Assembly (NCBI GenBank): GCA_902624045.1
Contig: CACNVX010000007.1
Location: 1-53,935, forward strand
Source: an uncultured Pelagibacteraceae bacterium
GTDB lineage: Bacteria; Pseudomonadota; Alphaproteobacteria; Pelagibacterales; Pelagibacteraceae
DNA length: 53,935 nucleotides
Direction of reading: 5' to 3'
Under the pieces are notes generated by a model. That model saw only the letters and a program-made list of their open reading frames with translations. It had not been told where the DNA came from and ran no database searches. Positions 1,802 to 20,668 of the stretch are shown in pieces (position 1 is the stretch's first letter; every line of letters starts with the position of its first letter). The position numbers were made by a program, and so were the translations under genes.

Positions 1802-3649
1802 TTAAACACCCTGTCTTTGTTTATTTTTTCCCTCTTTATATAATTTTAAAGCCTCTTTGTTCTCCTCTGTAGTTGGGTTTTCCAAAGTTGGGCTATCCCA
1901 GAAAGCGGATCCCTCAATCCATTTATAAGCATGAGTTTTAATTGAAATAACGTAAGTAACATCTGATTTTTTTGCCCTTTTAAAAGCTTCTTCAAGTTCG
2001 GAAATAGAATTTACATGTTCTGATTTAGCGCCCATACTTTCTGCATGTTTAGCAAAATCAACATCAACCAAACCTGGTGTTTTAGAGCTTTTCAATAAAT
2101 TATTATATTCTTTTCCACCCTTAAACAATTGAAGACGGTTGATTACTGCAAAACCTCCATTATCACAAATAATTATAATTAATTTATTTTTAGTAATTAC
2201 TGATGAGTATATATCTGTATTGTTCAGCAAATAAGAGCCATCACCAACAAAAGAAATTACATCTTTTTCAGGATTTGCCATTTTAATACCAAGAGCACCT
2301 GAAATTTCATAGCTCATACAACTAAACCCCCACTCTGTTTCATGAGTATTTAGTTCTCTTGGTCTCCATACCTGCGCAACTTCTCCAACTAAACCTCCAG
2401 CTGCTGTAACGGCAATATCTGTTGGATCTGAATTTCTATAAATTGCTCCAACTGCTTGAACATAACTTGGAATTTCTTGGTTTGTCGGAGCACTCTCTTG
2501 ATCTATATGCTTGTCCCATTCCTGTAATTCTTTTTGAGATTTATTATTCCATTCATCTTCTGCTTTCCAATTTCCAAGTGCTAAAGAAAGTTCGTCTAAG
2601 GAAACTTTTGCATCTCCAACAACTGCTTGTGCTAAATGTTTGTTTGCATCAAATCTAGAAACATTGATTGAAACAAGTTTAAAATTTTCATTTTCGAAAT
2701 TTGCCCAAGAGCCTGTTGTAAAATCTGCTAATTTTGTTCCTACAGCTATTGCAAGATCAGTTTGTTTAGCAAGATTATTTGTATTTTTTCCTCCTAAACC
2801 TCCTATTTGGCCAGCATAGTGTGAATGATTTTTTTTGATTGTGGAATAGCCCATAACTGTTTGTGTGACTGGTATATTGTGTTTAATTGCAAATTTGCTT
2901 AAATTTTCCATAGCATCTGAATAAAAAACTCCCCCGCCAGAAATTATAATTGGTTTTTTTGATTTTTTAATTTTTTCTGCTGCTTCTTTTATTTGAAAAT
3001 CGTCAGGTCTTGGTCTTCTAATTGTATGAATTCTCTCATGAAAAAATTCCTCAGGATAATCAAAGACTTGTCCTTGAATATCTTGACTTAAAGCAATACA
3101 AGCTGGACCACAATCAGCTGGGTCCAACATCATTTGTAATGCAGATGGAAATGATTGTATGATTTGTTCCGGTCTTGTTATTCTATCAAAATATCTTGTT
3201 ACCGGTTTAAACGCATCATTTGCTGTAATTCCTGGGTTATTAAAATGTTCTACTTGTTGAAGAACTGGATCTGGCATTCTATTTGCATACGTATCTCCCG
3301 GTAAAAATAAAATTGGCAACCTATTGCTCATTGCAACGGCCGCAGCTGTTACCATATTAGTTGCACCTGGTCCTACAGAAGATGTAGCTACAAAAATTTG
3401 TTGCCTTCTCTTCGCTCTTGAATAACCAATGCCTGTTAGAGCCATATTTTGCTCATGATGACCTCTGTATGTAGGTAAATCTTTTTGATTTTCCTCTAAA
3501 GCTTGTCCTAAGCAAGCTACATTCCCATGACCAAAAATTCCAAATACTCCTGGAAACAGAGGTTCTTTTTTACCATTTATTAATATTTTTTGAGCAATTA
3601 AATATTTAACGATAGCATGTGCACAGGTGATTGTAATTTTTTTCATCAA
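1802..3649 (-). CDS. iolD: IolD-like TPP-dependent trihydroxycyclohexane-dione hydrolase
   Basis: This 615-residue protein belongs to the thiamine-diphosphate enzyme superfamily and matches IolD in its N-terminus (TCAHAIVKYL, then GVFGIFGHGNVACLGQAL) and overall length. The catalytic Glu is in GHHEQNMA (E66). The TPP/Mg motif is GDGSYLLNN at 469-477, followed by CDN ending at N497. IolD opens the ring of 3D-(3,5/4)-trihydroxycyclohexane-1,2-dione to give 5-deoxy-glucuronate in myo-inositol catabolism. It heads an operon with a Gfo/Idh gene and a hydroxyacid dehydrogenase and is divergent from an aldehyde dehydrogenase-aldolase pair. A second Met at residue 2 is an equally good start. An IolE-like gene lies 14 kb away; iolB, iolC, iolJ and iolA are absent from the window. 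Confidence 0.88.
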   Translation of the reverse strand: MMKKITITCAHAIVKYLIAQKILINGKKEPLFPGVFGIFGHGNVACLGQALEENQKDLPTYRGHHEQNMALTGIGYSRAKRRQQIFVATSSVGPGATNMVTAAAVAMSNRLPILFLPGDTYANRMPDPVLQQVEHFNNPGITANDAFKPVTRYFDRITRPEQIIQSFPSALQMMLDPADCGPACIALSQDIQGQVFDYPEEFFHERIHTIRRPRPDDFQIKEAAEKIKKSKKPIIISGGGVFYSDAMENLSKFAIKHNIPVTQTVMGYSTIKKNHSHYAGQIGGLGGKNTNNLAKQTDLAIAVGTKLADFTTGSWANFENENFKLVSINVSRFDANKHLAQAVVGDAKVSLDELSLALGNWKAEDEWNNKSQKELQEWDKHIDQESAPTNQEIPSYVQAVGAIYRNSDPTDIAVTAAGGLVGEVAQVWRPRELNTHETEWGFSCMSYEISGALGIKMANPEKDVISFVGDGSYLLNNTDIYSSVITKNKLIIIICDNGGFAVINRLQLFKGGKEYNNLLKSSKTPGLVDVDFAKHAESMGAKSEHVNSISELEEAFKRAKKSDVTYVISIKTHAYKWIEGSAFWDSPTLENPTTEENKEALKLYKEGKNKQRQGV

Positions 3650-3737: not shown

Positions 3738-5180
3738 ATGTACGAAAAATTTGGACAATTCATTGATGGCAAATGGCAACAAGCTGAAAAAAAAGAAACT
3801 TACGATGTAATCAATCCTGCAACAGAAGAAGTTATAGGAAAAGCTTCAAAAGCTTCATCTATTGAAGTGCAGAAAGCATTAAAGTCAGCAGAGAAAGGAC
3901 TTGAGATTTGGAAAAATACTGCTCCTTGGCAAAGAGCTTACGTTCTCAGAAAAGTAGCCGATCTAATGAGAGAGAAGAAAGAGGTTTTAGCAAAATGGTT
4001 AACTTTGGAAGTAGGAAAACCACTTGCAGAGGCGGTGGGTGAAGTTGGTGGTGGAGCAGATATTTTTGAATGGAATGCTGAAGAAACAAAAAGAATATAT
4101 GGGCAAACTCAACAAAGTAGATTTCCAGATACAAGAGTGCATGTTTATTATCAGCCAGTAGGAGTTGTTGCAGCTCTGGTGCCTTGGAATTTTCCAATAG
4201 TTTTAGCTTCAAGAAAAATTTCTACTTCTTTAGCTGCTGGCTGTTCTGTTATATGTAAGCCAGATGTAATAACACCGGGTGCTGTAATGGAATTAGTAAA
4301 CATTTGTAAAGAAGCAGGTGTACCAGATGGCGTTATAAGCCTTTTATCTGGAGATCCAGCTGAGATATCTAATGAATTAATGGAATCTGACATAATTAAA
4401 AAAGTTTCTGTAACTGGGTCTACAAGAGTTGGTAAGATAATTTTAAAAAAAGCTGCAGATAAAGTTCAAAGAGTAACAATGGAACTTAGTGGACACTCTC
4501 CTTTTATAGTTTGTGAAGATGTGGACATTAATAAAGTCGCAGATATAGCTATAACTGGTAAGTTCAGAAATAATGGACAAGTCTGTATTTCACCAAATAG
4601 ATTTTATATTCAAGAAAATAGAAAAGATGAATTTGTTGATGCTTTTATTGAAAGAGCAAAAAAATTAAAAATTGGAAACGGTATGGATGATGGTATTGAT
4701 CTAGGTCCATTAACTACAGCAAAAAGATTAGAAGAAATTGAAAAATTAGTTGAGACTACAAAAAAAGAGGGTGCTAAGGTTTTGATGGGTGGAAAAAGAC
4801 CTTCTGGATTCAACAAAGGCTATTATTATGAACCTACCGTATTTGATGATGTAAAAGATAATTTTACAATCATGAAAGAAGAGCCTTTTGGTCCACTAGT
4901 TCCAATTTTAACATTTAAAACGTTTGACGAAGTTATTGAGAGAGCTAATGACAATGATCTGGGTTTATGTAGTTATTTATACACAAATTCAATGGACAAA
5001 GCTCATATAGGATCTGAAAAATTAGAAACTGGTTGTGTTGCTGTAAACACTGGTGTGGTTGCCCTTGCTGAAGCTCCTTTCGGAGGTATTAAGCAAACAG
5101 GTTATGGACGTGAAGGTGGATCTGGAGCAATTAAAGATTATTTAAATGTGAAATATACTCACATGGGATTAAAAATCTAA
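3738..5180 (+). CDS. NAD(P)-dependent aldehyde dehydrogenase, GabD/semialdehyde type
   Basis: A full-length 480-residue ALDH. The oxyanion Asn is in PWNFP (149-153, N151), the general base is E249 in VTMELSGHSP, and the nucleophile is C283 in NNGQVCISPNRF. The cofactor loop reads CKPDVITP (K174) rather than the usual KPSE-x-TP, and SGHSP replaces the common GGKSP, so it is a divergent member. The Arg-Phe-rich region around FRNNGQVC most resembles succinate- or ketoglutarate-semialdehyde dehydrogenases. It is followed after 3 bases by an HpcH/HpaI aldolase, implying that it oxidises an aldehyde or semialdehyde produced or used by that aldolase. Its promoter would lie in the boxed divergent region at 3650-3737. 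Confidence 0.9.
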   Translation: MYEKFGQFIDGKWQQAEKKETYDVINPATEEVIGKASKASSIEVQKALKSAEKGLEIWKNTAPWQRAYVLRKVADLMREKKEVLAKWLTLEVGKPLAEAVGEVGGGADIFEWNAEETKRIYGQTQQSRFPDTRVHVYYQPVGVVAALVPWNFPIVLASRKISTSLAAGCSVICKPDVITPGAVMELVNICKEAGVPDGVISLLSGDPAEISNELMESDIIKKVSVTGSTRVGKIILKKAADKVQRVTMELSGHSPFIVCEDVDINKVADIAITGKFRNNGQVCISPNRFYIQENRKDEFVDAFIERAKKLKIGNGMDDGIDLGPLTTAKRLEEIEKLVETTKKEGAKVLMGGKRPSGFNKGYYYEPTVFDDVKDNFTIMKEEPFGPLVPILTFKTFDEVIERANDNDLGLCSYLYTNSMDKAHIGSEKLETGCVAVNTGVVALAEAPFGGIKQTGYGREGGSGAIKDYLNVKYTHMGLKI

Positions 5181-5183
5181 ATA

Positions 5184-5978
5184 ATGAGAAAGAATAAAGT
5201 TAAAGAAATGATGAAGGAAGGTAAACCCGTCATCAATGGTTGGTGTGCAATTCCCAGTACAGCATCAGCTGAAGCAATGGCTCATCAAGGTTGGGATTCT
5301 CTAACTGTAGATATGCAACATGGTTTGGTTGATTACAGTAATGCACTTCCAATGATGCAAACAATATCAACAACAGAAGTAACTCCTTTAGCAAGAGTAA
5401 ATTGGAACGAACCAGGTCAAATAATGAAAATATTAGATGCTGGATGTTATGGAATTATTTGTCCAATGGTAAGTAATAAAAAAGAAGCTGAAAACTTTGT
5501 CCAAGCATGCATGTATCCACCAGATGGTTACAGGAGTTTTGGCCCAGTTAGAGGTTTAATTTATGGAGGGCCTGATTATGCAGATCACGCAAATCAAGAA
5601 ATACTAAAATTGGCAATGATAGAAACAAAAGAGTCGTTGGAGAACCTTGATGAGATTATGTCTACACCGGGTGTTGATGGTATTTATATTGGACCAGCAG
5701 ATTTAAGTTTAGCCATAGGTGAAAAACCTGGTTTTGACAGACCTGAGTCTTCAAAAGCTTATTCAGAAATTTTAAGAATTTTAGAACACGCAAAAAAAAA
5801 TAATATTTTTGCAGGAATTCATAATGGTACTACAGAATATGCAACTAAGATGATTGAAAAAGGTTTTAATTTTGTAACTATAGCCTCTGATTTAAGGGCC
5901 CTAAGTGCTGGTGCAAAAGCTACAGTTGATAAAATGAAGGGTTCTTTGTCAAAAAAAGATGATAATGCTACTTACTAA
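5184..5978 (+). CDS. HpcH/HpaI family class II aldolase
   Basis: This 264-residue protein matches metal-dependent pyruvate aldolases such as HpaI and 2-keto-3-deoxyglucarate aldolase. Residues that line up with the HpaI active site are H46 in DMQHGLVDY, R71 in ARVNW, metal ligand E147 in AMIETKE and D173 in GPADLS. Such enzymes cleave 2-keto-4-hydroxy acids to pyruvate or a related oxoacid plus an aldehyde. It follows the aldehyde dehydrogenase by 3 bases and is surely co-transcribed. In an otherwise IolD/IolE-containing region without IolC or IolJ, it is the best candidate for the carbon-carbon cleavage step. The physiological substrate is inference. Confidence 0.9.
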   Translation: MRKNKVKEMMKEGKPVINGWCAIPSTASAEAMAHQGWDSLTVDMQHGLVDYSNALPMMQTISTTEVTPLARVNWNEPGQIMKILDAGCYGIICPMVSNKKEAENFVQACMYPPDGYRSFGPVRGLIYGGPDYADHANQEILKLAMIETKESLENLDEIMSTPGVDGIYIGPADLSLAIGEKPGFDRPESSKAYSEILRILEHAKKNNIFAGIHNGTTEYATKMIEKGFNFVTIASDLRALSAGAKATVDKMKGSLSKKDDNATY

Positions 5979-5994
5979 TCTAGTGATCTAAAAA

Positions 5995-6090
5995 TTACTC
6001 AAATTGTTTTTTTCCCCTTAGCTGCTTTTGGTCTCCAACGGTTACTGTTTGCTTTGCTGGTTTAGCAGTCCTTGTATAGATATTCTTCAT
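5995..6090 (-). CDS. Possible 31-aa small protein coupled to the MarR-like gene
   Basis: The ATG at 6088-6090 overlaps the TGA of the MarR-like gene in the form ATGA, and the frame runs 31 codons to a TAA at 5995-5997. The peptide (MKNIYTRTAKPAKQTVTVGD then QKQLRGKKQFE) is basic. The stretch is visibly richer in G and C than its neighbours. A second frame over the same bases, lacking a start, reads NRWRPKAAKGKKTI, so which frame is coding, if either, is uncertain. No known family is recognised. Alternatively, this is a 3' untranslated region or a relic of a recombination boundary. Confidence 0.35.
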   Translation of the reverse strand: MKNIYTRTAKPAKQTVTVGDQKQLRGKKQFE

Positions 6091-6503
6091 TTAATTCCTT
6101 TATAAAGAATATCTCTTCTATCAATAAACTCCTCAAAAGTTTTAATTGTAATAACTGAAGGTAGAATAAAAATAGATCTTTTATCTCTATCGTTTCTAAT
6201 AATTCTAAAATAACCTTTTTTAATTGCTGTATCGATATAAACGTTTGAGGTCAAATATGATTTCTCGATTACTTTAAGTAATTGATTTTTGGTAATTGAT
6301 TTATTTTTGTAATAAGCAAGCATAACCATATGCAACATAATCCAATGTTGCGGGGTTAGGGAAAACCAATTCAATAATTCGTTGGCTAATCTTCCTTCAA
6401 AGTCGCCAAGTGATATTTCTGCTAATTGAATTCTTTTTTGAGTTAGTTTTGGAATTTTTTTTTGTTCTTCAAAATGTTTTGGGTATTTAAACTGTCTTTT
6501 CAT
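6087..6503 (-). CDS. MarR-like winged-helix transcriptional regulator
   Basis: A 138-residue protein without membrane segments. The middle (SLTPQHWIMLHMVMLAYYKN, then SITKNQLLKVIEKSYLTSNVY) looks like the helix-turn-helix core, and IDTAIKKGYF followed by RNDRDKRSIFILPS has the recognition helix, wing and DxR pattern of MarR-family regulators. It lies 27 bases after the DUF1907 gene on the same strand and is divergent, across that gene, from the PanE-like reductase. A local regulator of the sugar-acid genes is the natural inference, possibly acting on the palindrome at 7545-7570 or the boxes at 3651-3727. Family assignment is by pattern only. Confidence 0.65.
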   Translation of the reverse strand: MKRQFKYPKHFEEQKKIPKLTQKRIQLAEISLGDFEGRLANELLNWFSLTPQHWIMLHMVMLAYYKNKSITKNQLLKVIEKSYLTSNVYIDTAIKKGYFRIIRNDRDKRSIFILPSVITIKTFEEFIDRRDILYKGIK

Positions 6504-6530: not shown

Positions 6531-7508
6531 CTATTCAATACTATTTTTATTTAATAGTTCTTTATAAATATTGTTTACTCTATGAACTTCCACTGCAGTA
6601 TTAAAATATCCTTCATATTCTATTTCATTAGGTGTCACGTCAAAATGATAATGACCAGCATCTCTATCATGCTCATAAGAATGAAAGTGAGTGTGCTCAC
6701 CAGATTCTCTCAGATTTAATTCACCTCCTATTGGATCACCTGTCCAAAGAACAGTATAACACTGTAATTTTGGTCCTACAGGTTCATAAAATTGAAGAAA
6801 ATCTTTTACACATTTCATTTGTTTTGGATCGTAATACTCATATTTAATATCTTTATAATCAGGTTGTACATGAGATCTGATTTTTCCATTTAGAATTCTA
6901 AACACACCTGCAAGAGACATGTGATCATTATCTTTAATTTTTAAATTTTTTGATAAAGAAGACCTCATTGCTTGAGGTAAAGAACCTTGTTCTCCCTTTC
7001 TTCCTTTTATTTTTATTTTAATTACTTTTCCTTTTTTACCATCAGAGTAATAAATATTACCAAGACCACCATGTTTTTTGGCAGAATATTTTTCAACAAT
7101 ACATTGCTTATCTGAACCTACTCTTGCTATTATTGATTTAGATTCTTCTGTAATTAAATTTTCATTGATAACCAGTTCTCCACAATGACCATCTAAACAT
7201 GACATTGCACCTGATCCAGCTCCTAAAGCATAGGATTTTTCAGAGTCAATCATTTTGGATATTTCTTGATAGTCAAACTCTGCACCAATAAATTGTGGAT
7301 CATGCATATATGGCTCACCACCAACGTCTATTATTTTTTGATTTCCACTTATTCCCTCTGATGGACAATCCCAATCTCTAAGGTTAGGACAGTCTACCAC
7401 TTCTACCTCAACATTTTTGAAATTTTCAGATAATCCTTTTCTTAATGCATCTGAAATATCTTCTAATGAATAATCTCTAAAAACTCCTTTTTCTATTTTT
7501 AATTGCAT
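6531..7508 (-). CDS. DUF1907 / C11orf54-family zinc protein
   Basis: This 325-residue protein matches human C11orf54 (PTD012) end to end: LEDISDALRKGLSENFKNVE then VVDCPNL near the start, GGEPYM at 63-68, LGAGSGA at 95-101, NGKIRSHV at 207-214, and the zinc signature EHTHFHS (H272, H274) with GHYHFDVTP (H286, H288) and EYEGYF after it. The human crystal structure was described with zinc bound by histidines and weak ester hydrolase activity. I also recall, without being able to check here, newer work linking C11orf54 to L-xylulose formation from a 3-keto sugar acid, which would fit this locus. It heads an operon with the MarR-like gene. Confidence 0.85.
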   Translation of the reverse strand: MQLKIEKGVFRDYSLEDISDALRKGLSENFKNVEVEVVDCPNLRDWDCPSEGISGNQKIIDVGGEPYMHDPQFIGAEFDYQEISKMIDSEKSYALGAGSGAMSCLDGHCGELVINENLITEESKSIIARVGSDKQCIVEKYSAKKHGGLGNIYYSDGKKGKVIKIKIKGRKGEQGSLPQAMRSSLSKNLKIKDNDHMSLAGVFRILNGKIRSHVQPDYKDIKYEYYDPKQMKCVKDFLQFYEPVGPKLQCYTVLWTGDPIGGELNLRESGEHTHFHSYEHDRDAGHYHFDVTPNEIEYEGYFNTAVEVHRVNNIYKELLNKNSIE

Positions 7509-7596: not shown

Positions 7597-8541
7597 ATGA
7601 TTAATAAAGATTTGAAAGTAGCTGTACTTGGTGCAGGAGCAATGGGTTGTTTGTTTGGTGGTTTACTCGCTGAAAAAGGTTTAAACGTGATTTTAATTGA
7701 CGTTTGGAAAGAACATGTAGATGCGATAAATAAAGATGGCTTGAAAATGGATGGACATGGTGGTGACCGAGTAATCCAAGTCAGAGCAACTTCAGATCCG
7801 TCCTCTTTGGATAAAGTGGATGCTGTTATTGTCATGTGTAAAGCAACAGCTTTGGATCCAGCATTAAATAGTATTAAAAATATTATAGGAGATAAAACAG
7901 TGTTCATGTCTTTTCAAAATGGTATTGGTCATGAAGCAATTATTCAAAGTATAGTGGGTAATGAAAAAGTAATTGGTGGAACAACTACTCAAGCTTCAAA
8001 TATTTTAGGACCAGGACATATAATGAATCATGGCTCCTTACCATCTTGGATTGGAGAGTACGAAGGAGGAATTTCTGATCGGATTAAAGAGATAGCAGAT
8101 ACTTTTACAGCTCATAATCTTGAGATGATTGCTGCAGAAGATGTAAAAAAAAGAAAATGGATGAAACTTTTTGCTTTAACAGCAATTGGTCCATTGTCTG
8201 CAATTTTTGATCTTCATCATACTGACTTATATATAAACAACAAAGCAAATGAAGTATCTCGTGGTTTAGGTAAAGAAATAATTTTAGAAACTAGAGAAGT
8301 TGCACTTGCTGATGGTGTAAATGTTTCTGAGGATGAATGCTTATTTATGTTTAATAAAATTGTAGATTCAATGCAAACTAACAAGTCATCAATGGCTTTT
8401 GATGTTCAATACAAGAGAAAAACTGAAGTAGACTTTATTAGTGGTGCAGTTTCAAAAATAGGTAAAAAACATGGCGTTAAAACACCGTTAAATGATCTTA
8501 TGTATAAAATGATTAAAGTGAAAGAAGGTATGTACAGCTAA
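7597..8541 (+). CDS. Ketopantoate reductase (PanE/ApbA) family oxidoreductase
   Basis: This 314-residue protein has the N-terminal Rossmann motif LGAGAMGCLFG (G12, G14, G17), the mid-protein KKRKWMKLFA stretch holding the conserved catalytic Lys, and the C-terminal helical domain of the family (SSMAFDVQYKRKTEVDFISG). Classical PanE reduces 2-ketopantoate with NADPH for pantothenate synthesis. The family also contains reductases of other 2-keto or aldehyde acids. Its location in a sugar-acid region, divergent from the DUF1907 gene, suggests a catabolic relative rather than the biosynthetic enzyme, so no gene symbol is given. Confidence 0.85.
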   Translation: MINKDLKVAVLGAGAMGCLFGGLLAEKGLNVILIDVWKEHVDAINKDGLKMDGHGGDRVIQVRATSDPSSLDKVDAVIVMCKATALDPALNSIKNIIGDKTVFMSFQNGIGHEAIIQSIVGNEKVIGGTTTQASNILGPGHIMNHGSLPSWIGEYEGGISDRIKEIADTFTAHNLEMIAAEDVKKRKWMKLFALTAIGPLSAIFDLHHTDLYINNKANEVSRGLGKEIILETREVALADGVNVSEDECLFMFNKIVDSMQTNKSSMAFDVQYKRKTEVDFISGAVSKIGKKHGVKTPLNDLMYKMIKVKEGMYS

Positions 8542-8626
8542 ATGCTAACTTCTTTTCACGATGCAAACTATTTAACCACAGCACCAAAACATTGAAATTA
8601 CTTAAATGATAAAATAAATTTAATTT

Positions 8627-9607
8627 ATGAAAAATAATCTTTACAAAAAATTATCAGAAGATGGCTTTTTAATTGTTAGAAATATTCTTAATTTTAAAAA
8701 AGATCTTAAACCTATTCTTAATGATATGGAATTCGTTATGGACTGCCTAATAAACAAATATGGAAAACGTAAAGATATTAAAAAGGTTTTAAATTTTGAT
8801 TTTAAAAAAAAATACACATATATCTCAAAATTAAATATCAATGACCTTGATCAGTATTTCAATACGAGATTACCAAGAGACCACGTTAAAAAAAATAGTG
8901 ATTATTTTGCAACCCACTCATTATGGAATTTGATTACAAATAAAAAAATTCTTGATGTTGTTGAAAAAATATTAGGTAAAGAGATAATGTCAAATCCAGT
9001 TCAAAATACAAGAATTAAGCAACCAGAAAAAAAATTACCTAAAGCATCTGTCCATGATGGATTAAGCGGTAAAACCCCATGGCATCAAGACGCTGCAGTA
9101 TTAAATACAAAAGGACAAAAATTAACTGATATGGTTACAGTCTGGATACCTTTCACTAAAACTACGAAAAGAAATGGCTGTATGATTACTGTTAAAAAAA
9201 TAAATAAAATTGGATTACTCAATCATATATCAGGTTACAGAGGACAAGTTGAAATTAAAAATAGTGAACTTTTAGATAAAATGGAACATGTTTATCTTGA
9301 AGCAAATGTTGGAGATATAATACTTTTACACAAACATTCAATCCATTGCTCCTTACGTAATAGATCAAACGATTTTAGAATAAGCGCAGATTTAAGATAC
9401 AATATTGCTGGACAACCCTCGGGTAGAGAACCTCTTCCAAATTTTTATGTAAGAAGTAAAAATAAAAAAAATATTCAGATAAAAAATTTTAAACAATGGT
9501 TGACCCTATGGGAAAAGGCCAAAGAGAAACGTACAGGAAAATATGCCTTTAAATATCCACTACCTACATTTAAGGATAATAAGAGAGACTTATCAAATTT
9601 AGTTTAA
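8627..9607 (+). CDS. Phytanoyl-CoA dioxygenase (PhyH) family protein
   Basis: A 326-residue non-haem Fe(II)/2-oxoglutarate-type oxygenase. The metal ligands are visible as H153 and D155 in PWHQDAAVLN and H240 in SIHCSLRN, and R251 in DFRISADLRY is the expected 2-oxoglutarate-binding Arg. PhyH enzymes hydroxylate a wide range of small molecules, and several copies per genome are usual in SAR11-like bacteria. It follows the PanE-like gene by 85 bases and precedes a hydroxyacid dehydrogenase by 13 bases, so the last two are likely co-transcribed. An oxidised product could be passed to that dehydrogenase. Substrate unknown. Confidence 0.88.
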   Translation: MKNNLYKKLSEDGFLIVRNILNFKKDLKPILNDMEFVMDCLINKYGKRKDIKKVLNFDFKKKYTYISKLNINDLDQYFNTRLPRDHVKKNSDYFATHSLWNLITNKKILDVVEKILGKEIMSNPVQNTRIKQPEKKLPKASVHDGLSGKTPWHQDAAVLNTKGQKLTDMVTVWIPFTKTTKRNGCMITVKKINKIGLLNHISGYRGQVEIKNSELLDKMEHVYLEANVGDIILLHKHSIHCSLRNRSNDFRISADLRYNIAGQPSGREPLPNFYVRSKNKKNIQIKNFKQWLTLWEKAKEKRTGKYAFKYPLPTFKDNKRDLSNLV

Positions 9608-11649: not shown

Positions 11650-12987
11650 CTAATCTACTTTTAATCCACTTGGCACCCTATTAGGTTTTCCTAATGGTCT
11701 TTGATTTCCACTTCTTCCAGTAAGAGATTCAAGAAAAGCAACTAATTGATCAATTTCTTTTTCATTCAAATTAATTGGTTGAATGTCAATACTAGAAATT
11801 ATTCTATCTTGTTCTCTTTTGTCTGAAAAAGTAACAAAATCTATTTGTTCTAACCAAGGAGCATTTGGTAAATTTGCGTATTCAGGTTTCCAGCTTTTAT
11901 TCATATTTATTGGATCTAAATGATGTTTAATTATACCTTTTAGAGTTGGATAAGCTCCATTATGTCCATAAGGTGCTGTCAAAGAAACATTTCTAAGTGC
12001 TGGTGTTTTGAAATTATACATATCTTTAACATTATCAGTCTCAACCATACGGCCTACATCACGTGCATAAGGATCGAAAGGTCTTGTCCTTCCAGGTCCA
12101 AACTGAGGAATACCAATTGAATGAAATTTTTGGTCTGATAACAAGGAACCAGAGTGACAAGAACTACAGTTTGCCTTTCCATAAAACAACTGCATACCTT
12201 TTATTTGATTTAAAGTTAGAGCCGATTTATCACCATTTAAATAATCATCAAATGGAGTATCAAACGATGTCCATTCATGAATTTCGAATGCTGCAATAGA
12301 ATTTACAATGTGTGTAATATTTATATCTAAAGCAGTGTCAACATCATCAAAAGCATTTTTAAATAATTGAACATATTCTGGTATTGCTCGAATTCTATTT
12401 GATATAACTGGCCACACAGCATCTATTCTCATACTGTCCTTACCAACTTTAGAAACTAAACCAATTATCTCGTTTTCACCTGGATTACCTGCCATCTCAA
12501 ATTGTCTAGTCATTGGAAACAAAGCTTGAACTGCAACAATATTATCTAGGCCCTTAGGAAGAGCCTCTTGTGCAGGTGTATTAAAATTGTTACCAAATAT
12601 ATTTGATTTAGTTACTCGGCCATCATGTAATAAAGTAGTTATGTCTTTAAACCCTAAATTCCATAGTGCCAAAGCATTTCTTGGAACACGTTTTTTAATT
12701 CTATCAGATCCAACACCAGCCGTCCTATTTAAGCCAATACCTATTCCTCCTTCGCCAATTCCTAATGAAAGACCATCAGAACCTCCTAATTCATGACTAT
12801 GACAAGTCGCACAAGCGATATTTCGATTTGCAGATAAAATCTTGTCATGAAACAACAATCTACCAATTTTTACTTTTTCCATATCAACTTTATGGAAATC
12901 ATCAATTGTTAAAGGTTTCGGTAAATCAGTTGCGTATGTTTTATTTACTGAGATTAAAAATGGAATTATAAATATTATTAATTTTAT
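11650..12987 (-). CDS. Diheme cytochrome c peroxidase / MauG-like protein
   Basis: Two haem c motifs are present: CATCHSH (C59, C62, H63 in the numbering used here) and CSSCHSG in the second half, with the LFHDKILSANRNIACATCH context typical of the bacterial diheme peroxidase family. A hydrophobic signal sequence (KLIIFIIPFLISVNKTYA) predicts export to the periplasm. The start is a problem: the frame stays open to 13413, but residues upstream of the signal are antisense to the Sel1 gene and look non-coding. No ATG, GTG or TTG lies near the signal; the coordinates given assume an ATA at 12985-12987 (445 aa). It probably removes peroxide or oxidises a small periplasmic substrate. Confidence 0.82.
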   Translation of the reverse strand: MKLIIFIIPFLISVNKTYATDLPKPLTIDDFHKVDMEKVKIGRLLFHDKILSANRNIACATCHSHELGGSDGLSLGIGEGGIGIGLNRTAGVGSDRIKKRVPRNALALWNLGFKDITTLLHDGRVTKSNIFGNNFNTPAQEALPKGLDNIVAVQALFPMTRQFEMAGNPGENEIIGLVSKVGKDSMRIDAVWPVISNRIRAIPEYVQLFKNAFDDVDTALDINITHIVNSIAAFEIHEWTSFDTPFDDYLNGDKSALTLNQIKGMQLFYGKANCSSCHSGSLLSDQKFHSIGIPQFGPGRTRPFDPYARDVGRMVETDNVKDMYNFKTPALRNVSLTAPYGHNGAYPTLKGIIKHHLDPINMNKSWKPEYANLPNAPWLEQIDFVTFSDKREQDRIISSIDIQPINLNEKEIDQLVAFLESLTGRSGNQRPLGKPNRVPSGLKVD

Positions 12988-13458
12988 ATGTTTAAATATA
13001 TTTTTATACTTTTGTTCTTCCCAGCTATAGTTTTTGCAGAAATTGAAAATGCTAGAGATTTGATGGAAGAAGGAAAATTTAAAGAAGCTATGGAAGAACT
13101 TATGCCAGCAGCTAGATCGGGTAATGCTGATGCTGAGGAACTTATTGGTATTATGTACGCTATGGGTCTTGGTGTTGAAAGAGATGATGTTAGAGCTTTT
13201 GAGTGGTATCTCAGATCTTCTATGAAAGGTCATCCTGGTGCTCAATCTGGAGTTGGATGGTATTACGAAATTGGAAGAGGCCTTCCTGCTCCTGATCTTG
13301 TTAGAGCATATATGTGGTATGGTTTGTCTGCTATCGGTGGTGACCCTGATGCAGCAATTTCTCAGGAAGAGGTAATAAAAAAAATGACTCCTGAACAAAT
13401 TGAAAAAGCTCATATTCTCATAAAAGATTACAAATCATGGATATATCCTTTTAGATAA
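12988..13458 (+). CDS. Exported Sel1/TPR-repeat protein
   Basis: This 156-residue protein has a clear signal peptide (MFKYIFILLFFPAIVFA) followed by alpha-helical Sel1-like repeats: AEELIGIMYAMGLGVERDD, AFEWYLRSSMKGHPGAQSG, and VRAYMWYGLSAIGGDPDAA. Sel1 proteins are protein-interaction scaffolds, usually periplasmic. Its ATG directly abuts the presumed 5' end of the divergent cytochrome gene, leaving no intergenic promoter, so its promoter must lie within that gene. A hairpin at 13457-13483 follows the stop. Function unknown; a partner role for the peroxidase is only a guess. Confidence 0.8.
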   Translation: MFKYIFILLFFPAIVFAEIENARDLMEEGKFKEAMEELMPAARSGNADAEELIGIMYAMGLGVERDDVRAFEWYLRSSMKGHPGAQSGVGWYYEIGRGLPAPDLVRAYMWYGLSAIGGDPDAAISQEEVIKKMTPEQIEKAHILIKDYKSWIYPFR

Positions 13459-13500: not shown

Positions 13501-14553
13501 TTATAAATCTTTTTTGTATGCGCTCGATGCTCTTTTCTCTGCACTTGCAACTGCTTTTGTTAAAGCGTTAAAAATTTCTTTTCCACCTTTAACATTCGCT
13601 TTAAACCAATCATACACAGGACTAGCTTCTTTTTTAAAACTAGCTTTTTGATCAGGTGTAGGAACATATAAATCTCCACCACCAGCTACAAAGTCCTCGT
13701 AAGCTTTGATTGATTTTCTCTTTGGAGAAGCAAAAGTCGCTTGTTGTAAAGCATAGAAACCATCAGTCACAACTTTTTTTAGATCTGATGACATAGACTC
13801 ATACTTTGCATTATTCATCCACCATAATGCCCCCATGTATGCATGACCATCTAATGTTACATATTTTAGACCTGCATCAGGAAACTTCATGTTCATAATA
13901 TCAGTTATTCCATTTTTTGAACCCTCAACTACACCAGTTTGAAATGATGTAAACAATTCAGGCCATGGTATAGGAGTTGGAGATGCCCCTAACGCTCTAA
14001 CAAGTTCTTGAGGTAAATCAGCTACAACTGTTCTAATTTTTAAACCTTTCATGTCAGATGGGTTTGCAATTCTTCTTTTTGTATTTGCAAAATTTCTCCA
14101 TCCTCCGGTGTTTCCAATTGTCATCAACCTAATTGAGTCATTAGAATCTTTTAGAGCCATTTTTCTCATAGTTCTTACAAAATCACCTTGCATAACATCT
14201 TCAGCAATCCTGTCGTCAGCCATTAGATAAGGTAAATCTAAAACTTGAACATATGGGAATACACCAGCTGCTCCTCCAGAAGTCGATATATAAATATCTA
14301 TACTTCCATCAGATACACCTTGTAAACACTCTGCACCTTTGGAACAAAGTTGGGTTCCTACAAACAACTCTACAGCTATTTTTCCATTTGATGCCGCTTC
14401 AACATAGTTTTTAAAAACTACTGCACCATCGTAATCTTCGTCTTGATCATTAGAATTCATTGTCATTCTCAAGTTATAGTCTGCAGCTGATACAGATGCT
14501 GTAAAACTGATTAAGAATAAAAATGAAAAAAATGACTTAATTATTTTACTCAT
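13501..14553 (-). CDS. dctP: TRAP transporter substrate-binding protein DctP
   Basis: A 350-residue periplasmic solute-binding protein. The first 23 residues form a signal peptide ending SVSA. The DctP signature follows: GLKIRTVVADLPQEL, containing the conserved Arg that binds a substrate carboxylate, then GASPTPIPWPELFTSFQTG. It is the last gene of a dctQ-dctM-dctP order on the minus strand, 87 bases after dctM. The start has a strong purine-rich ribosome site (GGGGGGAA on the minus strand). The conserved Arg predicts an organic- or sugar-acid ligand, in keeping with the surrounding catabolic genes; the ligand itself is not known. Confidence 0.92.
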   Translation of the reverse strand: MSKIIKSFFSFLFLISFTASVSAADYNLRMTMNSNDQDEDYDGAVVFKNYVEAASNGKIAVELFVGTQLCSKGAECLQGVSDGSIDIYISTSGGAAGVFPYVQVLDLPYLMADDRIAEDVMQGDFVRTMRKMALKDSNDSIRLMTIGNTGGWRNFANTKRRIANPSDMKGLKIRTVVADLPQELVRALGASPTPIPWPELFTSFQTGVVEGSKNGITDIMNMKFPDAGLKYVTLDGHAYMGALWWMNNAKYESMSSDLKKVVTDGFYALQQATFASPKRKSIKAYEDFVAGGGDLYVPTPDQKASFKKEASPVYDWFKANVKGGKEIFNALTKAVASAEKRASSAYKKDL

Positions 14554-14640
14554 AATTATTTCCCCCCGATTAATATTTATTATTTAAACTATACTTAAAT
14601 TGAATTAGAGAGTCTATGAACTAGTAAAAAAATTGTAAAG
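14554..14640 (-). promoter_or_regulatory. dctM-dctP gap with a TTAAGTATAG box and strong RBS
   Basis: Read on the minus strand, the gap contains CAATTTAAGTATAGTTTAAA at about 14583-14602, which shares the TTAAGTATA core of the boxes at 3651-3699. Next to the dctP start is the purine run CGGGGGGAAATAATT, an unusually strong ribosome site for this genome. The layout suggests that the binding protein is transcribed or translated at a higher level than the two membrane subunits, as is common for TRAP systems. Confidence 0.4.
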
Positions 14641-15930
14641 TTATTTTGCAAATCCAGTAAGCAAAGGGATGGTCATGGATATTGATGGAAAATAAGTAAT
14701 TAAAAATATAACTATAGCCTCTACGGCTAAGAAAGGCAATATAGCTTTTGCAATGGTTTCAACTCTTTCTCCTGATACAGAGGATGCCACAAATAAAACA
14801 AGTCCCATTGGTGGTGTTGCTAAACCTACTGTTAAATTAACAGACATAATAATTGCAAAATGAACGGGGTGAACTCCTAACTCAACAAAAACTGGTCCAA
14901 GAATTGGTCCTAAGATAATTATCGCTGGACCTGCATCTAAAAACATTCCTACAATAAATAATAAAATATTTATTAGAAATAATAAAATATATGGATTATC
15001 AGTTAATCCTAAAACAAAAGCTGCAAGATGTTCAGGTGCATGTGATAAACTCACTACCGTTTTGAAAGCCATTGCAGCCCCTACCAAAAGTAGAACTACA
15101 GAAGAAACCATGGCTGCCTTTGTCATGACTTTTGGGATATCTTTCAATTTTAAAGATTTTAAAACAAACAAACCTATAAACATTGCATAAGCTGCAGCCA
15201 CAGCTGATGCTTCTGTTGGTGTAAAAATTCCACCGAGAATTCCTCCTAAAATAATAACTGGTGTCATTAAAGGAAAAAAAGCTTTAAGAGATGCTTTGCC
15301 TCTTTGGCTCCAAGTTGTTTTTTCTGTCACTGCTGGAAAATTATATCTCTTCGCCATAAATTTAATTGTTATCATCAAACTAACTCCAACTAAAATTCCA
15401 GGAACAATCCCAGCTAAAAATAAAGCAGCAACACTCTCACCCATTACGTAAGCGTAAATAATCATTATGCCAGAAGGTGGAATGATTGGTCCGATTACAG
15501 AACTTGCAGCAGTGATAGCTGCAGCAAATTTTTTTGTATAACCTTGTTTTTCCATAGCAGGTATTAGCATTGAACCAATTGCTGATGTATCAGCTACTGC
15601 AGAACCTGATAAACCAGCAAACAACATAGACGTCAAAACATTTACATGAGCTAATCCACCTTTTAAATGTCCCATCATAGCCTGACTAAATTCAACCAAT
15701 CGAAGCGTTATTCCACCTCTATTCATTAATTCTCCAGCTAACATAAAAAAAGGTATGGCCATGAGAGGAAAGCTATCTATCCCATTATAAATATTTCTAT
15801 ATAACATTGCTCCATCTCTTGCCTGATCATTTAACCAAAGTAAAATTCCAGGTGCTGCCAATAATGCAAAAAATACCGGTAAACCAATTAACAAAAATAA
15901 TAAAAATAAAGGTAGAAACCAAACTAACAT
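14641..15930 (-). CDS. dctM: TRAP transporter large permease DctM
   Basis: A 429-residue, very hydrophobic protein with about 11-12 membrane spans. It has the DctM landmarks FFMLAGELMNRGGIT, LFAGLSGSAVADTSAIGSML and VIGPIIPPSGIMIIYA. This subunit carries the solute across the inner membrane using an ion gradient, with DctQ and the binding protein DctP. It follows dctQ by 2 bases and precedes dctP by 87 bases, giving one transport operon in the middle of the sugar-acid region. Confidence 0.94.
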   Translation of the reverse strand: MLVWFLPLFLLFLLIGLPVFFALLAAPGILLWLNDQARDGAMLYRNIYNGIDSFPLMAIPFFMLAGELMNRGGITLRLVEFSQAMMGHLKGGLAHVNVLTSMLFAGLSGSAVADTSAIGSMLIPAMEKQGYTKKFAAAITAASSVIGPIIPPSGIMIIYAYVMGESVAALFLAGIVPGILVGVSLMITIKFMAKRYNFPAVTEKTTWSQRGKASLKAFFPLMTPVIILGGILGGIFTPTEASAVAAAYAMFIGLFVLKSLKLKDIPKVMTKAAMVSSVVLLLVGAAMAFKTVVSLSHAPEHLAAFVLGLTDNPYILLFLINILLFIVGMFLDAGPAIIILGPILGPVFVELGVHPVHFAIIMSVNLTVGLATPPMGLVLFVASSVSGERVETIAKAILPFLAVEAIVIFLITYFPSISMTIPLLTGFAK

Positions 15931-15932
15931 TA

Positions 15933-16636: not shown

Positions 16637-17602
16637 ATGAGTAATAGAAAAAAGATATTAATTATTCAAAAAGTCCATGAAAAAGGCATGGAATTAATTA
16701 ATAATAATCCAAATTTTGATGTTGAGGTAACCGACGATACTTCTATAGAAAATTTAAAATCAAAATTAAAAGATTGTGATGGTGCATCAATAAGAATTGC
16801 AAAACTACCTGGAGAAACATTTGAAGAAGCAAACAATTTAAAAATTATTTCAAGACATGGTGTTGGATATGACAACATTGATTTAAAAAAAGCTAAAGAA
16901 AAAGACATAAAAATAGCAATAACAGCTAATGCAAATGCGGTTACAGTAGCCGAACATGTAATGTTTGTTTTATTAAATATTGCAAAAAGAAAAGACTTAT
17001 TTGACAAAACAGTAAGAGATGGAAATTTTAAAGAAAGAAATAAATTACCAAAAACAATAGAAATTTGGAAAAAAAATTTTTTGATAATGGGTTTTGGTAG
17101 AATTGGAAAAGCACTAATTAAAAGATGTTTAGGCTTTGAAATGAATGTTTTTGTATACGATCCATTTGTTGATAAAGAAAAAATTGAGGAATTTGGTGGT
17201 AGAAAAGTAGAAGATCTTACTGATGCAGTAAAAACTATGGATGTTATATCTCTTCATATGCCATTAACGGATAAAACTGAAAATTTAATTAATTATGATT
17301 TATTAAAAACAATGAAGAAAAACTGTATTATTATTAATGCAGCAAGAGGTGGTATTATTCATGAGGAAGATCTTGATAAAGCTTTAAAAGAGAACTTAAT
17401 TTTTGGTGCTGCTATAGATGTATTTAAAAAAGAGCCACCCGATTATAACAATCCTCTTCTTAAAAATGAAAAAGTTTATTTAAGTCCTCATACAGCTGCA
17501 TTTACTGATGAATGCATGACAAGAATGGGAAAAGAAACTATACAAAATATTATTGATTTCTTTGAAAATAAACTAGACTCGTCTAAAATCGTAAAACTAT
17601 GA
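16637..17602 (+). CDS. D-2-hydroxyacid dehydrogenase
   Basis: A 321-residue NAD-dependent enzyme. MGFGRIG (151-157) is the dinucleotide motif and YDPF (174-177) marks the NAD-selective strand end. The catalytic residues are R237 in NAARGG, E266 in KKEP and H285 in SPHTAAFT. It is a short form without a regulatory domain, in the same family as the genes at 1-630 and 9621-10544. It is divergent from the TRAP operon and overlaps the convergent IolE-like gene by 6 bases. A role on an imported hydroxyacid or a pathway intermediate is likely. Confidence 0.88.
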   Translation: MSNRKKILIIQKVHEKGMELINNNPNFDVEVTDDTSIENLKSKLKDCDGASIRIAKLPGETFEEANNLKIISRHGVGYDNIDLKKAKEKDIKIAITANANAVTVAEHVMFVLLNIAKRKDLFDKTVRDGNFKERNKLPKTIEIWKKNFLIMGFGRIGKALIKRCLGFEMNVFVYDPFVDKEKIEEFGGRKVEDLTDAVKTMDVISLHMPLTDKTENLINYDLLKTMKKNCIIINAARGGIIHEEDLDKALKENLIFGAAIDVFKKEPPDYNNPLLKNEKVYLSPHTAAFTDECMTRMGKETIQNIIDFFENKLDSSKIVKL

Positions 17603-18496
17603 TTTAACAATCAAATTTACATCCTTACATACCTTTGACAAATAATTATAGCCAATTTTTGCATACTCTAACGGGTTGGCTTTAGATGGATCTTGCTCTG
17701 CCTCAACCACTAACCATCCTTCATAATCACTTTTTTTTAAAAAATTTAATAATGGTTTGTAATCAATACATCCGTCACCTGGGACTGTAAAAGCACCTTG
17801 TAAAAAGGCTTGTTGAAAACTTAAATCTTCCTGCAAAGATTTTTTTAATATGTTTTCTCTCATATCTTTACAGTGAACATGAATAATTTTTTCTCTAAAA
17901 TTTTTAGCTATCTCTATAAAGTTTCCACCTGAAAAAAGCATATGCCCTGTATCTAATATTAATTTAACATGGTCAGTAGTATTTTCTAAAAGTCTTTCAG
18001 TATCTTGTTGTGACTCAATTACTGTTCCCATATGATGATGATAAGCTAATGGCATACCTTGATCCTCGAGATATTTTCCAATTTCAGAAATTTTAACACA
18101 AAAATTTCTCCATTCTTGATCACTCATTTTTGGTCTAGTTGATAAAGATCTTTTGGGGTCACCTGCAATAGAGTCCGAAACCTCTGCAAATACAATACAT
18201 GGTGCGTTACAATCTTGAAAGAGTTTTAATTGATCTTGAACTAATTCAATTTCCTCTTTTACTGAATTTATTCTTAAATTTGCACCGTACCATCCCGAAC
18301 ATAATTTTAAATTATATTTTTTCAATAAAGGAATTAATTCGTTCGATTTTTTTGGAAACTTGCCTCCAGACTCAATACCCGAAAATCCTGCTTCACTAGC
18401 TTCAGAAAGACATTGCTCAAGTGGTGTGTCACCACCAAGCTCAGGCATATCATCATTACTCCAAGCTATAGGTGCAATTCCTAATTTTACTGACAT
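17597..18496 (-). CDS. iolE: IolE-like inosose dehydratase / sugar isomerase-epimerase
   Basis: A 299-residue AP-endonuclease-2-type TIM barrel. The N-terminus (MSVKLGIAPIAWSNDDMPEL, then GGDTPLEQCLSEA) is close to IolE. Metal-binding stretches are visible: YHHHMGTVIE, LDTGHMLFSGG, VHCKDMR, FTVPGDGCIDY and EAEQDPS. IolE dehydrates 2-keto-myo-inositol to trihydroxycyclohexane-dione, the substrate of IolD. An in-frame Met lies 11 codons upstream (18529), but the start at 18494-18496 fits the family N-terminus. It is divergent from two Gfo/Idh genes with a 40-base gap holding the palindrome AATAAATTTATT at 18497-18508. Confidence 0.85.
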   Translation of the reverse strand: MSVKLGIAPIAWSNDDMPELGGDTPLEQCLSEASEAGFSGIESGGKFPKKSNELIPLLKKYNLKLCSGWYGANLRINSVKEEIELVQDQLKLFQDCNAPCIVFAEVSDSIAGDPKRSLSTRPKMSDQEWRNFCVKISEIGKYLEDQGMPLAYHHHMGTVIESQQDTERLLENTTDHVKLILDTGHMLFSGGNFIEIAKNFREKIIHVHCKDMRENILKKSLQEDLSFQQAFLQGAFTVPGDGCIDYKPLLNFLKKSDYEGWLVVEAEQDPSKANPLEYAKIGYNYLSKVCKDVNLIVKS

Positions 18497-18536
18497 AATA
18501 AATTTATTTGTTATGATATATAAAAACATACAATCA

Positions 18537-19670
18537 ATGAAAACAAATAAATTATCTTTAGGTGTTGTTGGTGGAGGTCCAAAATCTTGGATTGGTCATG
18601 TTCATAGAATTTCTGCAAGATTTGATGATAAATATGAAATTGTTGCAGGAGTATTTTCAAGAAATGTAAAGTTATCCAAAAACTTCGGGAGAAATTTGGG
18701 TATCTCAGCTGACAGATGTTATGCAAATTATATTGAAATGGCTAACAAAGAGTCAAAAAGAAAAGATGGAATTAAAGTTGTTACTATTATGACACCGCCA
18801 TCTAGTCATCAAATAATAGCTGAGAAATTTATTGAAAAAAATGTACATGTGATTTCAGACAAACCATTTGCTGGAAATCTTGAGCAAGCAAAAAAATTAT
18901 ATAGAAAAATTAAAGCAAATAAAAAAATAAAATATGCCCTAACCCATAACTACTCAGCTTATCCAATGGTAAGAGAGGCTAAAAAATTAGTTGAAAAAGG
19001 AAAGATTGGTAAAGTTGAGTATGTAAATGTTGAATATATTCAAGATTGGTCTGGAGGGACAAAAATTAACTCAAAAAATGCAAAAAGAAAACTTAAATGG
19101 AAAATTGATAGCAAAATAGTAGGAGCATCTGCTGTTTTAAACGAAATTGGAACTCATGCATATCATCTTGCTTCTTATATTTCAGGTTTAAAAGGACAAA
19201 CAGTTTTTGCAGATATAAAACAAATTTCAAAAAAAATTAAAATGGATGATAATGCTCAAGTTATTATTAATTTTAACAATGGCGCAAAAGGAATGTTTTG
19301 GACAAGCGTTATGGCTAAAGGTGGGGTTTATGGTTTAAGAATTAGAATATTTGGGTCTAAGGGGAGTTTAGAATGGGTACAAAATGATCCAAACTATCTT
19401 AAACTGAATCCAGAAAAAGGTGCTGTAAAATTATTAGAAAGAGGGTTTCATAATTCAGAATTTTCAAAACAATTTTCTAGAATAAAATTTGGGCACCCAG
19501 AGGGTTATCTTGATGCTTTTGCTAACATTTATAAGGAGTTTGCAGACTCGTTAAAGAACAAAACAAATAAGAGATACTTTTATCCAACTGAAGACGAGGG
19601 TCTTGAAACAGCAAAATTTATTAGTGCATGTAAAATTTCCTCAAGAAGGAAAAAATGGGTAAAAATATAA
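18537..19670 (+). CDS. Gfo/Idh/MocA family oxidoreductase (DKP variant)
   Basis: The chosen start (MKTNKLSLGVVGGGPKSWIG) places the Rossmann glycines at residues 9-14; an open frame runs further upstream to 18360 but is antisense to the IolE-like gene. The 377-residue protein has DKPFAGN at 108-114, with Asp replacing Glu of the usual EKP motif, and the substrate-domain stretch GTHAYHLASYISGL. Such enzymes oxidise or reduce sugars and cyclitols. The last 16 bases overlap the next Gfo/Idh gene, so the two are translationally coupled and may act in sequence or as a hetero-oligomer. Confidence 0.88.
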   Translation: MKTNKLSLGVVGGGPKSWIGHVHRISARFDDKYEIVAGVFSRNVKLSKNFGRNLGISADRCYANYIEMANKESKRKDGIKVVTIMTPPSSHQIIAEKFIEKNVHVISDKPFAGNLEQAKKLYRKIKANKKIKYALTHNYSAYPMVREAKKLVEKGKIGKVEYVNVEYIQDWSGGTKINSKNAKRKLKWKIDSKIVGASAVLNEIGTHAYHLASYISGLKGQTVFADIKQISKKIKMDDNAQVIINFNNGAKGMFWTSVMAKGGVYGLRIRIFGSKGSLEWVQNDPNYLKLNPEKGAVKLLERGFHNSEFSKQFSRIKFGHPEGYLDAFANIYKEFADSLKNKTNKRYFYPTEDEGLETAKFISACKISSRRKKWVKI

Positions 19671-20668
19671 TTAATATTGCACTATTTGGACTTGGAAGAA
19701 TTGGCCAAATGCATGCTGATAACTTGATAAATCATAAAGATTTTAAACTGATATATATATTTGATAAAAATAAAACATTAACTAAAAAGCTATCTAAAAA
19801 ATACAATGCTATTGGTATTGAAAATCCAAAAATTGCATTTAAAGATAAAAATATTAAATGCATATTTATTGCATCGAGCACAAATACACATTTAAAATTT
19901 ATAGAAGAGGCAGTTGTGAATAAGAAAGTTGTATTCTGTGAAAAACCTTTAGACCTTGATTCTGTAAAAATTAATAAGTGTAAAAAAAAAATTTCTAGTT
20001 ATCATCCAAAGATACAAATTGGATTTAACAGGAGATATGATCCAGCACATAATTCTTTAAAAAAAAATTTGTTAAAAGGTAAAATTGGTAAATTAGAAAA
20101 AATAATAATTACAAGTCGAGACCCACAACCCCCACCTCTAAATTATTTAAAAACATCTGGTGGTATATTTAAAGATATGATGATACATGATTTTGATTTA
20201 GCCAGATTTTATGCTGGCGATGATGAATTTTACTCTATATTTGCAATAGGGCAACGTTTCTCAGATCGAAAACTGAAGAAAATTAATGATTTCGATTTGG
20301 CAACTGTAGTTATGAAAACAAAAAAAGGGGTGCAATGTGTTATTACTAACTCTAGACATTGTAGTTTTGGTTATGATCAAAGAATTGAGCTTTTTGGATC
20401 AAAAGGTATGATGATATCAGATAATCAAAGAGAGTTGGAAACGGTTTTATATTCAAAAAATTCAACCGATAATAAAACGCAATTAAAAAATTTCTTTATT
20501 GAAAGATATTCAAAAGCTTACAAAATTCAGCTAAATGATCTAGTAAAGATTTGTAGGAAACAATCAAAGCCTTTAGCAAATTTTGAAGATGGCAGAAAAT
20601 CTCTTATACTCGCTGAAATTGCTAAAAAATCCTTAAATACTAAAAAATTTGAAAAGATTACTTTTTAA
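19655..20668 (+). CDS. iolG: Inositol 2-dehydrogenase-like Gfo/Idh/MocA oxidoreductase
   Basis: A 337-residue protein with the IolG-type N-terminus ALFGLGRIGQMHADNL (Rossmann GLGRIG at 12-17), CEKPLDLD at 95-102, FNRRYDP, and the catalytic stretch GGIFKDMMIHDFDLARF containing the Asp-x-x-x-His-Asp pattern. IolG oxidises myo-inositol to 2-keto-myo-inositol, the IolE substrate. It overlaps the previous Gfo/Idh gene by 16 bases. With the divergent IolE-like gene this gives a possible first-two-steps module. The family is very broad, so the inositol assignment rests on motif style and neighbours. Confidence 0.75.
   Translation: MGKNIINIALFGLGRIGQMHADNLINHKDFKLIYIFDKNKTLTKKLSKKYNAIGIENPKIAFKDKNIKCIFIASSTNTHLKFIEEAVVNKKVVFCEKPLDLDSVKINKCKKKISSYHPKIQIGFNRRYDPAHNSLKKNLLKGKIGKLEKIIITSRDPQPPPLNYLKTSGGIFKDMMIHDFDLARFYAGDDEFYSIFAIGQRFSDRKLKKINDFDLATVVMKTKKGVQCVITNSRHCSFGYDQRIELFGSKGMMISDNQRELETVLYSKNSTDNKTQLKNFFIERYSKAYKIQLNDLVKICRKQSKPLANFEDGRKSLILAEIAKKSLNTKKFEKITF

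Follow-up and report, generated by a model that had tools for sequence, protein, structure and literature searches.

The stretch of DNA analysed here, referred to below as the window, comprises 53,935 nucleotides of the genome of an uncultured Pelagibacteraceae bacterium (total length 1.15 Mb, 53 contigs, completeness 83%), and it carries on its minus strand, at positions 6531..7508, an ATG-initiated open reading frame of 325 amino acids that encodes a protein of the DUF1907/C11orf54 family, a predicted Zn-dependent beta-keto-acid decarboxylase on the basis of PF08925 and of its likeness to 1XCR in sequence and fold. The start of this gene lies 88 bp from that of a divergent gene for a PanE/ApbA-family dehydrogenase (7597..8541, plus strand; PF02558 and PF08546), the score of which against TIGR00745 (236.1 bits, cut-off 141.35) confirms the PanE-like reductase that had been proposed from the sequence alone. 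The plus strand also carries a PhyH-family 2OG dioxygenase (8627..9607; PF05721, 62.2 bits), a member of the same cassette in relatives (cluster c2), and the minus strand a small MarR/SarA-like protein (6087..6503), a possible regulator of the cassette. The latter had been called a MarR-type regulator, a designation that has behind it one weak TIGR01889 match (24.5 bits, below the cut-off of 62.6) and no Pfam match. A promoter scan of the window returned 19 sites against 21.6 expected, and terminator-like sites numbered 4 against 1.0 expected.

The flanks of this cassette consist mainly of genes for inositol catabolism, namely IolD (1802..3649, minus strand; TIGR04377, 799.3 bits, above 715), which lies outside the DUF1907 cassette, IolE or myo-inosose-2 dehydratase (17597..18529, minus strand; TIGR04379, 407.7 bits, above 290) and IolG or inositol 2-dehydrogenase (19655..20668, plus strand; TIGR04380, 370.2 bits, above 355). 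The same inositol cluster includes an aldehyde dehydrogenase (3738..5180, plus strand; PF00171, 532.5 bits; cluster c9) and an HpaI-type class II aldolase (5184..5978, plus strand; PF03328, 111.4 bits; cluster c5), and 2-hydroxyacid dehydrogenases also flank the gene. A generic sugar-acid locus is ruled out because IolG, IolE and IolD, standard members of the bacterial iol pathway, exceed equivalog cut-offs, so that the earlier description of the neighbours as sugar-acid dehydrogenases was a loose one. The surroundings are a myo-inositol cluster with a separate DUF1907 cassette inside it.

The end-to-end match to the C11orf54/DUF1907 family that the sequence-only reading had noticed, including the motif GHYHFDVTP, is confirmed. 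The protein covers the whole PF08925 profile (positions 1-285 of 285; 207.9 bits, E 2.8e-61, Pfam cut-off 25), its sole Pfam match at E <= 0.001, and at the same threshold human PTD012 (1xcr_A) is its sole sequence match among solved structures (E 3.8e-40, query residues 10-312 against chain residues 9-305). Over an aligned fragment of human C11orf54/PTD012, 113 of 283 residues (39.9%) are identical; GHYHFDVTP stands opposite human GHYHYDTTP, and EHTHF opposite EHTHF. The EHTH and GHYH motifs are invariant in an alignment of nine SAR11 DUF1907 sequences and the human one, and inspection of the histidines showed that H272, H274, H286 and H288, likewise invariant in all 10 sequences, align with human residues 267, 269, 279 and 281 (human numbering derived from the chain range of the 1xcr_A match). 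These HxH and GHxH histidines presumably include the three that bind the zinc in 1XCR.

An AlphaFold2 model built with 14 SAR11 sequences, of moderate quality (pLDDT 67.3, pTM 0.75), is closest to 1XCR (Z 29.7, 293 residues, 2.9 A), with which Foldseek agrees. Second come the bacterial acetolactate decarboxylases (4BT3, 5XNE, 6INB), which have a common core fold with the model over approximately 210 residues (Z 10.2-11.5, 206-212 residues) at 9-15% identity in the structural alignment, while the next fold reaches Z 6.0; neither a Pfam (E <= 0.001) nor an NCBIfam match to the acetolactate decarboxylase family was found in the window protein. Acetolactate decarboxylase itself is a metal-dependent enzyme that decarboxylates a beta-keto acid. 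A simple Nei-Gojobori count gave the DUF1907 gene a dN/dS of 0.063-0.093 against eight relatives and of 0.135, on few changes, against the closest one (L071); the intact reading frame and the range of 0.063-0.093 rule out that the gene is itself a pseudogene. The window protein is thus a full-length member of the C11orf54 family with the same predicted fold.

It was only in 2025 that a gene was assigned to the human enzyme. According to a commentary (PMC12435205), human C11orf54 is reported as 3-dehydro-L-gulonate decarboxylase (BKG decarboxylase), forming L-xylulose, and a 2026 paper repeats this assignment (PMC12921845). The sequence-only reading was therefore correct in connecting the human protein with the formation of L-xylulose from a keto sugar acid. 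The same commentary describes the zinc of the PTD012 structure as bound by three histidines, relates the structure to acetolactate decarboxylase, mentions rotifer proteins in which DUF1907 is fused with 3HCDH dehydrogenase domains, and states that the family occurs in some bacteria too, saying no more of bacteria (PMC12435205). It also recalls that human PTD012 hydrolyses p-nitrophenyl acetate and that the family was formerly annotated as ester hydrolases (PMC12435205), observations on which one could found the view that the SAR11 protein is an ester hydrolase or a moonlighting protein instead of a decarboxylase. We regard this as very improbable, given that the nearest folds past 1XCR are decarboxylases, that the constant partner described below is a dehydrogenase and that the human protein has since been reassigned; the hydrolase role that had been suggested earlier has the p-nitrophenyl acetate activity as its one backing. 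Because the human homologue is reported as a decarboxylase of 3-dehydro-L-gulonate, a zinc-dependent beta-keto-acid decarboxylase is the best reading of the SAR11 protein, both the zinc and the chemistry being carried over by analogy from the human enzyme. The SAR11 gene is a bacterial representative of a family that has recently been explained, and is not categorically new. In a literature search, no published description of bacterial DUF1907 gene context was found among the matches listed; SAR11 supplies such a context, together with presence/absence variation of DUF1907 within one genus and a testable partner.

Within Pelagibacterales the gene occurs in 74 of 297 genomes of the family, belonging to three of 14 genera (designated g1, g214 and g216), and in 48 of 247 genomes of the order, where the same three genera, out of 10, are represented. 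The single carrier among 398 genomes drawn from the phylum is the window's own genome, and DUF1907 was absent from all 14 control genomes outside Pseudomonadota. Of 263 relatives, the best 80 are without exception assigned to Pelagibacteraceae or Candidatus Pelagibacter, which places the window in SAR11, a group abundant in the ocean; the closest of these 80, from an uncultured Pelagibacteraceae bacterium, has a DUF1907 that is 97% identical. No match was found among 72,556 plasmid records, and the three stretches matched in viral contigs with the window protein include no relative. Gene context was compared in the window, in 40 DUF1907 neighbourhoods (at most 20 kb each, taken from 40 of the 74 carriers) and in 20 IolD neighbourhoods (eight from DUF1907-negative g1 genomes and 12 from g214/g216). 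Gene content was compared in a hand-chosen panel of 60 related genomes consisting of 40 of the 74 carriers (all 23 of g1 and 17 of the 51 others) and 20 of the 223 non-carriers, these 20 all being from g1 and none from g214 or g216.

The sequence-only reading had taken the local sugar-acid locus as the metabolic context of the family, a view that finds no support, since the myo-inositol cluster exists in g1 without DUF1907. In seven of eight DUF1907-negative g1 IolD loci, a 2-hydroxyacid dehydrogenase (c12) directly adjoins the HpaI-type aldolase gene (c5), the eighth locus (L165) being too short to show c12, whereas the DUF1907 block sits between c12 and c5 in 15 of 21 g1 stretches; in four others c15 replaces c12, and two are cut off. 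The aldehyde dehydrogenase gene (c9) adjoins IolD in all 20 fetched IolD loci and c5 adjoins the aldehyde dehydrogenase gene in 18, the remaining two ending before c5, while none of the 12 loci fetched from g214/g216 contains DUF1907. Unlike a member of the iol pathway, the gene thus does not accompany the iol cluster consistently among relatives; it belongs to a cassette separate from the inositol core. This also illustrates how a function read from one window can mislead, in that the adjacent inositol genes are kept in relatives that lack DUF1907.

A further peculiarity of the SAR11 clusters is that, apart from DUF1907 lying outside the conserved core, they differ from the standard bacterial iol pathway in having neither IolB nor IolC over cut-off. 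IolB was absent from all 60 panel genomes by two models, although 41 of these genomes have IolD, and IolC was found in none of the 60 over its cut-off, with sub-cut-off matches in all 60. It could be supposed, in this regard, that DUF1907 is a SAR11 inositol step replacing the missing IolB-IolC, for instance by acting on a keto acid derived from 5-deoxyglucuronate, and both the position of the gene within the g1 iol cluster and the higher frequency of IolD over cut-off among carriers than among non-carriers (33/40 against 8/20; Fisher P 0.0025) speak for it, as does the general absence of IolB. However, the eight IolD-positive genomes without DUF1907 lack IolB equally, which leads us to reject DUF1907 as an IolB substitute, and the iol core is otherwise unchanged where the cassette is missing (seven of eight loci, the eighth too short) and stands without DUF1907 in the 12 g214/g216 loci. 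We therefore consider an inositol step improbable, while independence from inositol is incomplete at the genome level because IolD is commoner among carriers, including 13 of the 17 g214/g216 carriers of the panel.

In contrast to IolD, the PanE-like gene follows DUF1907 almost without exception. It is the divergent neighbour of DUF1907 in 21 of 21 g1 stretches, and within the panel matches to it (74-100% identity, E <= 1e-60) were found in 38 of the 40 carriers and in none of the 20 non-carriers; in the two carriers without it (G468 and G583), DUF1907 lies approximately 6 kb or less from a contig end. Since the association with IolD is looser, the PanE-like dehydrogenase is the constant partner of DUF1907. 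A PanB-like gene (at least 72% identity) behaves similarly, being present in 35 of 40 carriers (the exceptions being G000, G596, G648, G686 and G468) and in 0 of 20 non-carriers, with PanB matches of 28-34% identity, seen in carriers and non-carriers alike and probably representing ordinary PanB, left uncounted. The corresponding Fisher P values (5.5e-14 for PanE-like and 1.3e-11 for PanB-like), like that for IolD, are not corrected for relatedness and are merely descriptive because the panel genomes are related.

The full g1 cassette has the order PhyH, 2OG-Fe(II) oxygenase, PanE-like, DUF1907, MarR-like, PanB-like. This exact six-gene order was found in 42 of the 47 loci that show both flanks (c12 and c5), the other five being variants; the count was made on 80 named-contig loci, the 80 best of 263, whose genomes are partly those of the family survey (some contigs have identical lengths). 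Another 33 of these 80 loci do not show c12 or c5, some of them having c15 in place of c12, and were not counted. The gene after DUF1907 is the MarR-like one (c11) in 16 of the 21 g1 stretches and in 2 of the 13 g216 stretches. No solved structure matched the 2OG-Fe(II) oxygenase of the cassette. The PanB-like protein aligns with E. coli ketopantoate hydroxymethyltransferase from residue 56 only and has Ala opposite Asp84, which we take to be a metal ligand of the E. coli enzyme; it is for these two reasons probably a different lyase.

In g214 and g216 the gene lies away from IolD, in a catabolic island of approximately 20 kb (L183, L185, L189-L191). A gene with a weak match to the MhpD/HpaH family adjoins DUF1907 in 20 of 20 g214/g216 stretches against 0 of 21 in g1, followed in the island stretches read further by PanB-like, EamA, PhyH, a Liv-type ABC transporter and PanE-like genes. 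The island also carries an acyl-CoA ligase, a crotonase, an enolase-superfamily protein, a CitE/HpcH-like protein and GFO/IDH dehydrogenases (families assigned from cluster representatives), and the crotonase occurs in every one of the 17 panel carriers from g214/g216 against none of the 43 g1 genomes, whether carriers or not. The 2OG-Fe(II) oxygenase gene is present in 11 of 13 g216 stretches, and no copy of it was seen along the three extended g214 stretches (L181, L182, L189). From the gene content of the three genera, the common set therefore consists of DUF1907, PanE-like, PanB-like and PhyH. A sugar-acid-like substrate is still conceivable in view of the enolase-superfamily protein and the GFO/IDH dehydrogenases of these islands.

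Taken together, these data lead us to propose, with a probability of roughly two in three (0.68), that the protein is a C11orf54-family zinc decarboxylase of a beta-keto hydroxy acid which works with a PanE-family partner in an independent SAR11 catabolic cassette; in one genus this cassette is placed inside the inositol cluster or next to it, and in two others the gene lies in the island with the Liv-type transporter. Most likely, and by analogy with the human CRYL1-C11orf54 pair, DUF1907 would form part of a dehydrogenase/decarboxylase route and decarboxylate a beta-keto acid, zinc polarising the keto group and stabilising the enolate left by the loss of CO2, as in acetolactate decarboxylase. 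The PanE-family dehydrogenase would probably supply this keto acid or use it up; that the two genes are paired is observed, and the order of the reactions is conjectural. PanE enzymes act on alpha-keto acids, so that caution is due on the order of steps and a beta-keto product is not required of the PanE-like protein. The keto-acid decarboxylase role put forward in the sequence-only reading thus stands as the best inference, backed by the human activity and by the co-occurrence with the PanE-like gene.

Whether the SAR11 enzyme acts on the human substrate itself, 3-dehydro-L-gulonate (EC 4.1.1.34), is a separate matter. The identity of about 40% to the human enzyme, the conserved histidine motifs and the reported human activity are in line with it, as are the g214/g216 islands, where an enolase-superfamily protein, one representative of which has its best matches, below the cut-offs, in models of galactonate and arabinonate dehydratases, accompanies GFO/IDH dehydrogenases. 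The partner dehydrogenase is, however, PanE-like and not of the 3HCDH type fused with DUF1907 in rotifers, and the two 2OG oxygenases and the PanB-like protein of the SAR11 cassette do not fit anywhere in the human route; the human substrate is thus possible, although not favoured, and we consider it unlikely. Going beyond the decarboxylase reading in the other direction, it may tentatively be suggested that the cassette encodes an undescribed, oxygenase-initiated SAR11 route dismantling a hydroxy acid that is either branched, with a C-methyl or hydroxymethyl group, or cyclic. Such a route would comprise two 2OG-Fe(II)/PhyH dioxygenases, the PanE-family dehydrogenase, the C11orf54-type zinc decarboxylase and a divergent PanB-superfamily lyase, and would resemble ketopantoate enzymes at one end and the acetolactate decarboxylase fold at the other. 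If this were true, the human CRYL1-C11orf54 pair would be one case of an older module of dehydrogenase and DUF1907 decarboxylase.

In the window genome the cassette is eroded. Of the 21 g1 stretches, 18 have the PanB-like gene; the position of the 2OG-Fe(II) oxygenase gene can be seen in 20 of them, and 19 of these carry it. The window has no intact copy of either gene. Instead, relics of both sit at the positions expected from the cassette order: the N-terminal 28-30 codons of the PanB-like gene (6001..6090, minus strand; tblastn, 57-68% identity, best E 9e-7), which a genome search also matched as 5992-6090 with one internal stop, and the C-terminal 17 codons of the oxygenase gene (8542..8592, plus strand; tblastn, 94% identity, residues 273-289 of 289, E 1.7e-5). 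In L071, the closest relative, the PanB-like gene is missing but the 2OG gene persists, indicating that the losses were stepwise. DUF1907, PanE-like and PhyH are intact, and dN/dS by the same simple count is 0.020-0.031 for PanE-like and 0.038-0.072 for PhyH; because all three genes stay constrained, we infer that they are probably still used. On the other side, dN/dS of DUF1907 is higher against L071, and a pathway that has lost two of its cassette genes may be decaying.

As regards the inositol cluster itself, the lack of IolB and of IolC over its cut-off, together with an aldehyde dehydrogenase adjoining IolD and an HpaI-type aldolase adjoining that dehydrogenase, suggests that SAR11 may use an alternative lower pathway, in which, to speculate, 5-deoxyglucuronate would be oxidised and then cleaved into hydroxypyruvate and malonic semialdehyde. 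Kinases near IolD in relatives were considered as IolC and ruled out, none of the 60 genomes having a match over cut-off; in one genome (G459), a PfkB gene near the inositol cluster adjoins RbsD/FucU and sugar ABC genes (L186, 12653-17001), and this part therefore looks like ribose use. A published survey counts as an inositol cluster at least three of iolB, C, D and E (PMC9430895), so that SAR11-type clusters would fall outside that definition. Literature searches on an inositol route without IolB and on SAR11 inositol genes yielded nothing further among the matches listed. Elsewhere in the window, three genes at 13501-16526 (minus strand) resemble by eye a TRAP-type transporter, with a binding protein and two membrane subunits. 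The open reading frames at 11650-13413 (minus strand) and 12988-13458 (plus strand) overlap on opposite strands, and the former, the N-terminus of which may be overcalled, carries CxxCH haem motifs that by eye resemble those of a di-haem cytochrome c peroxidase.
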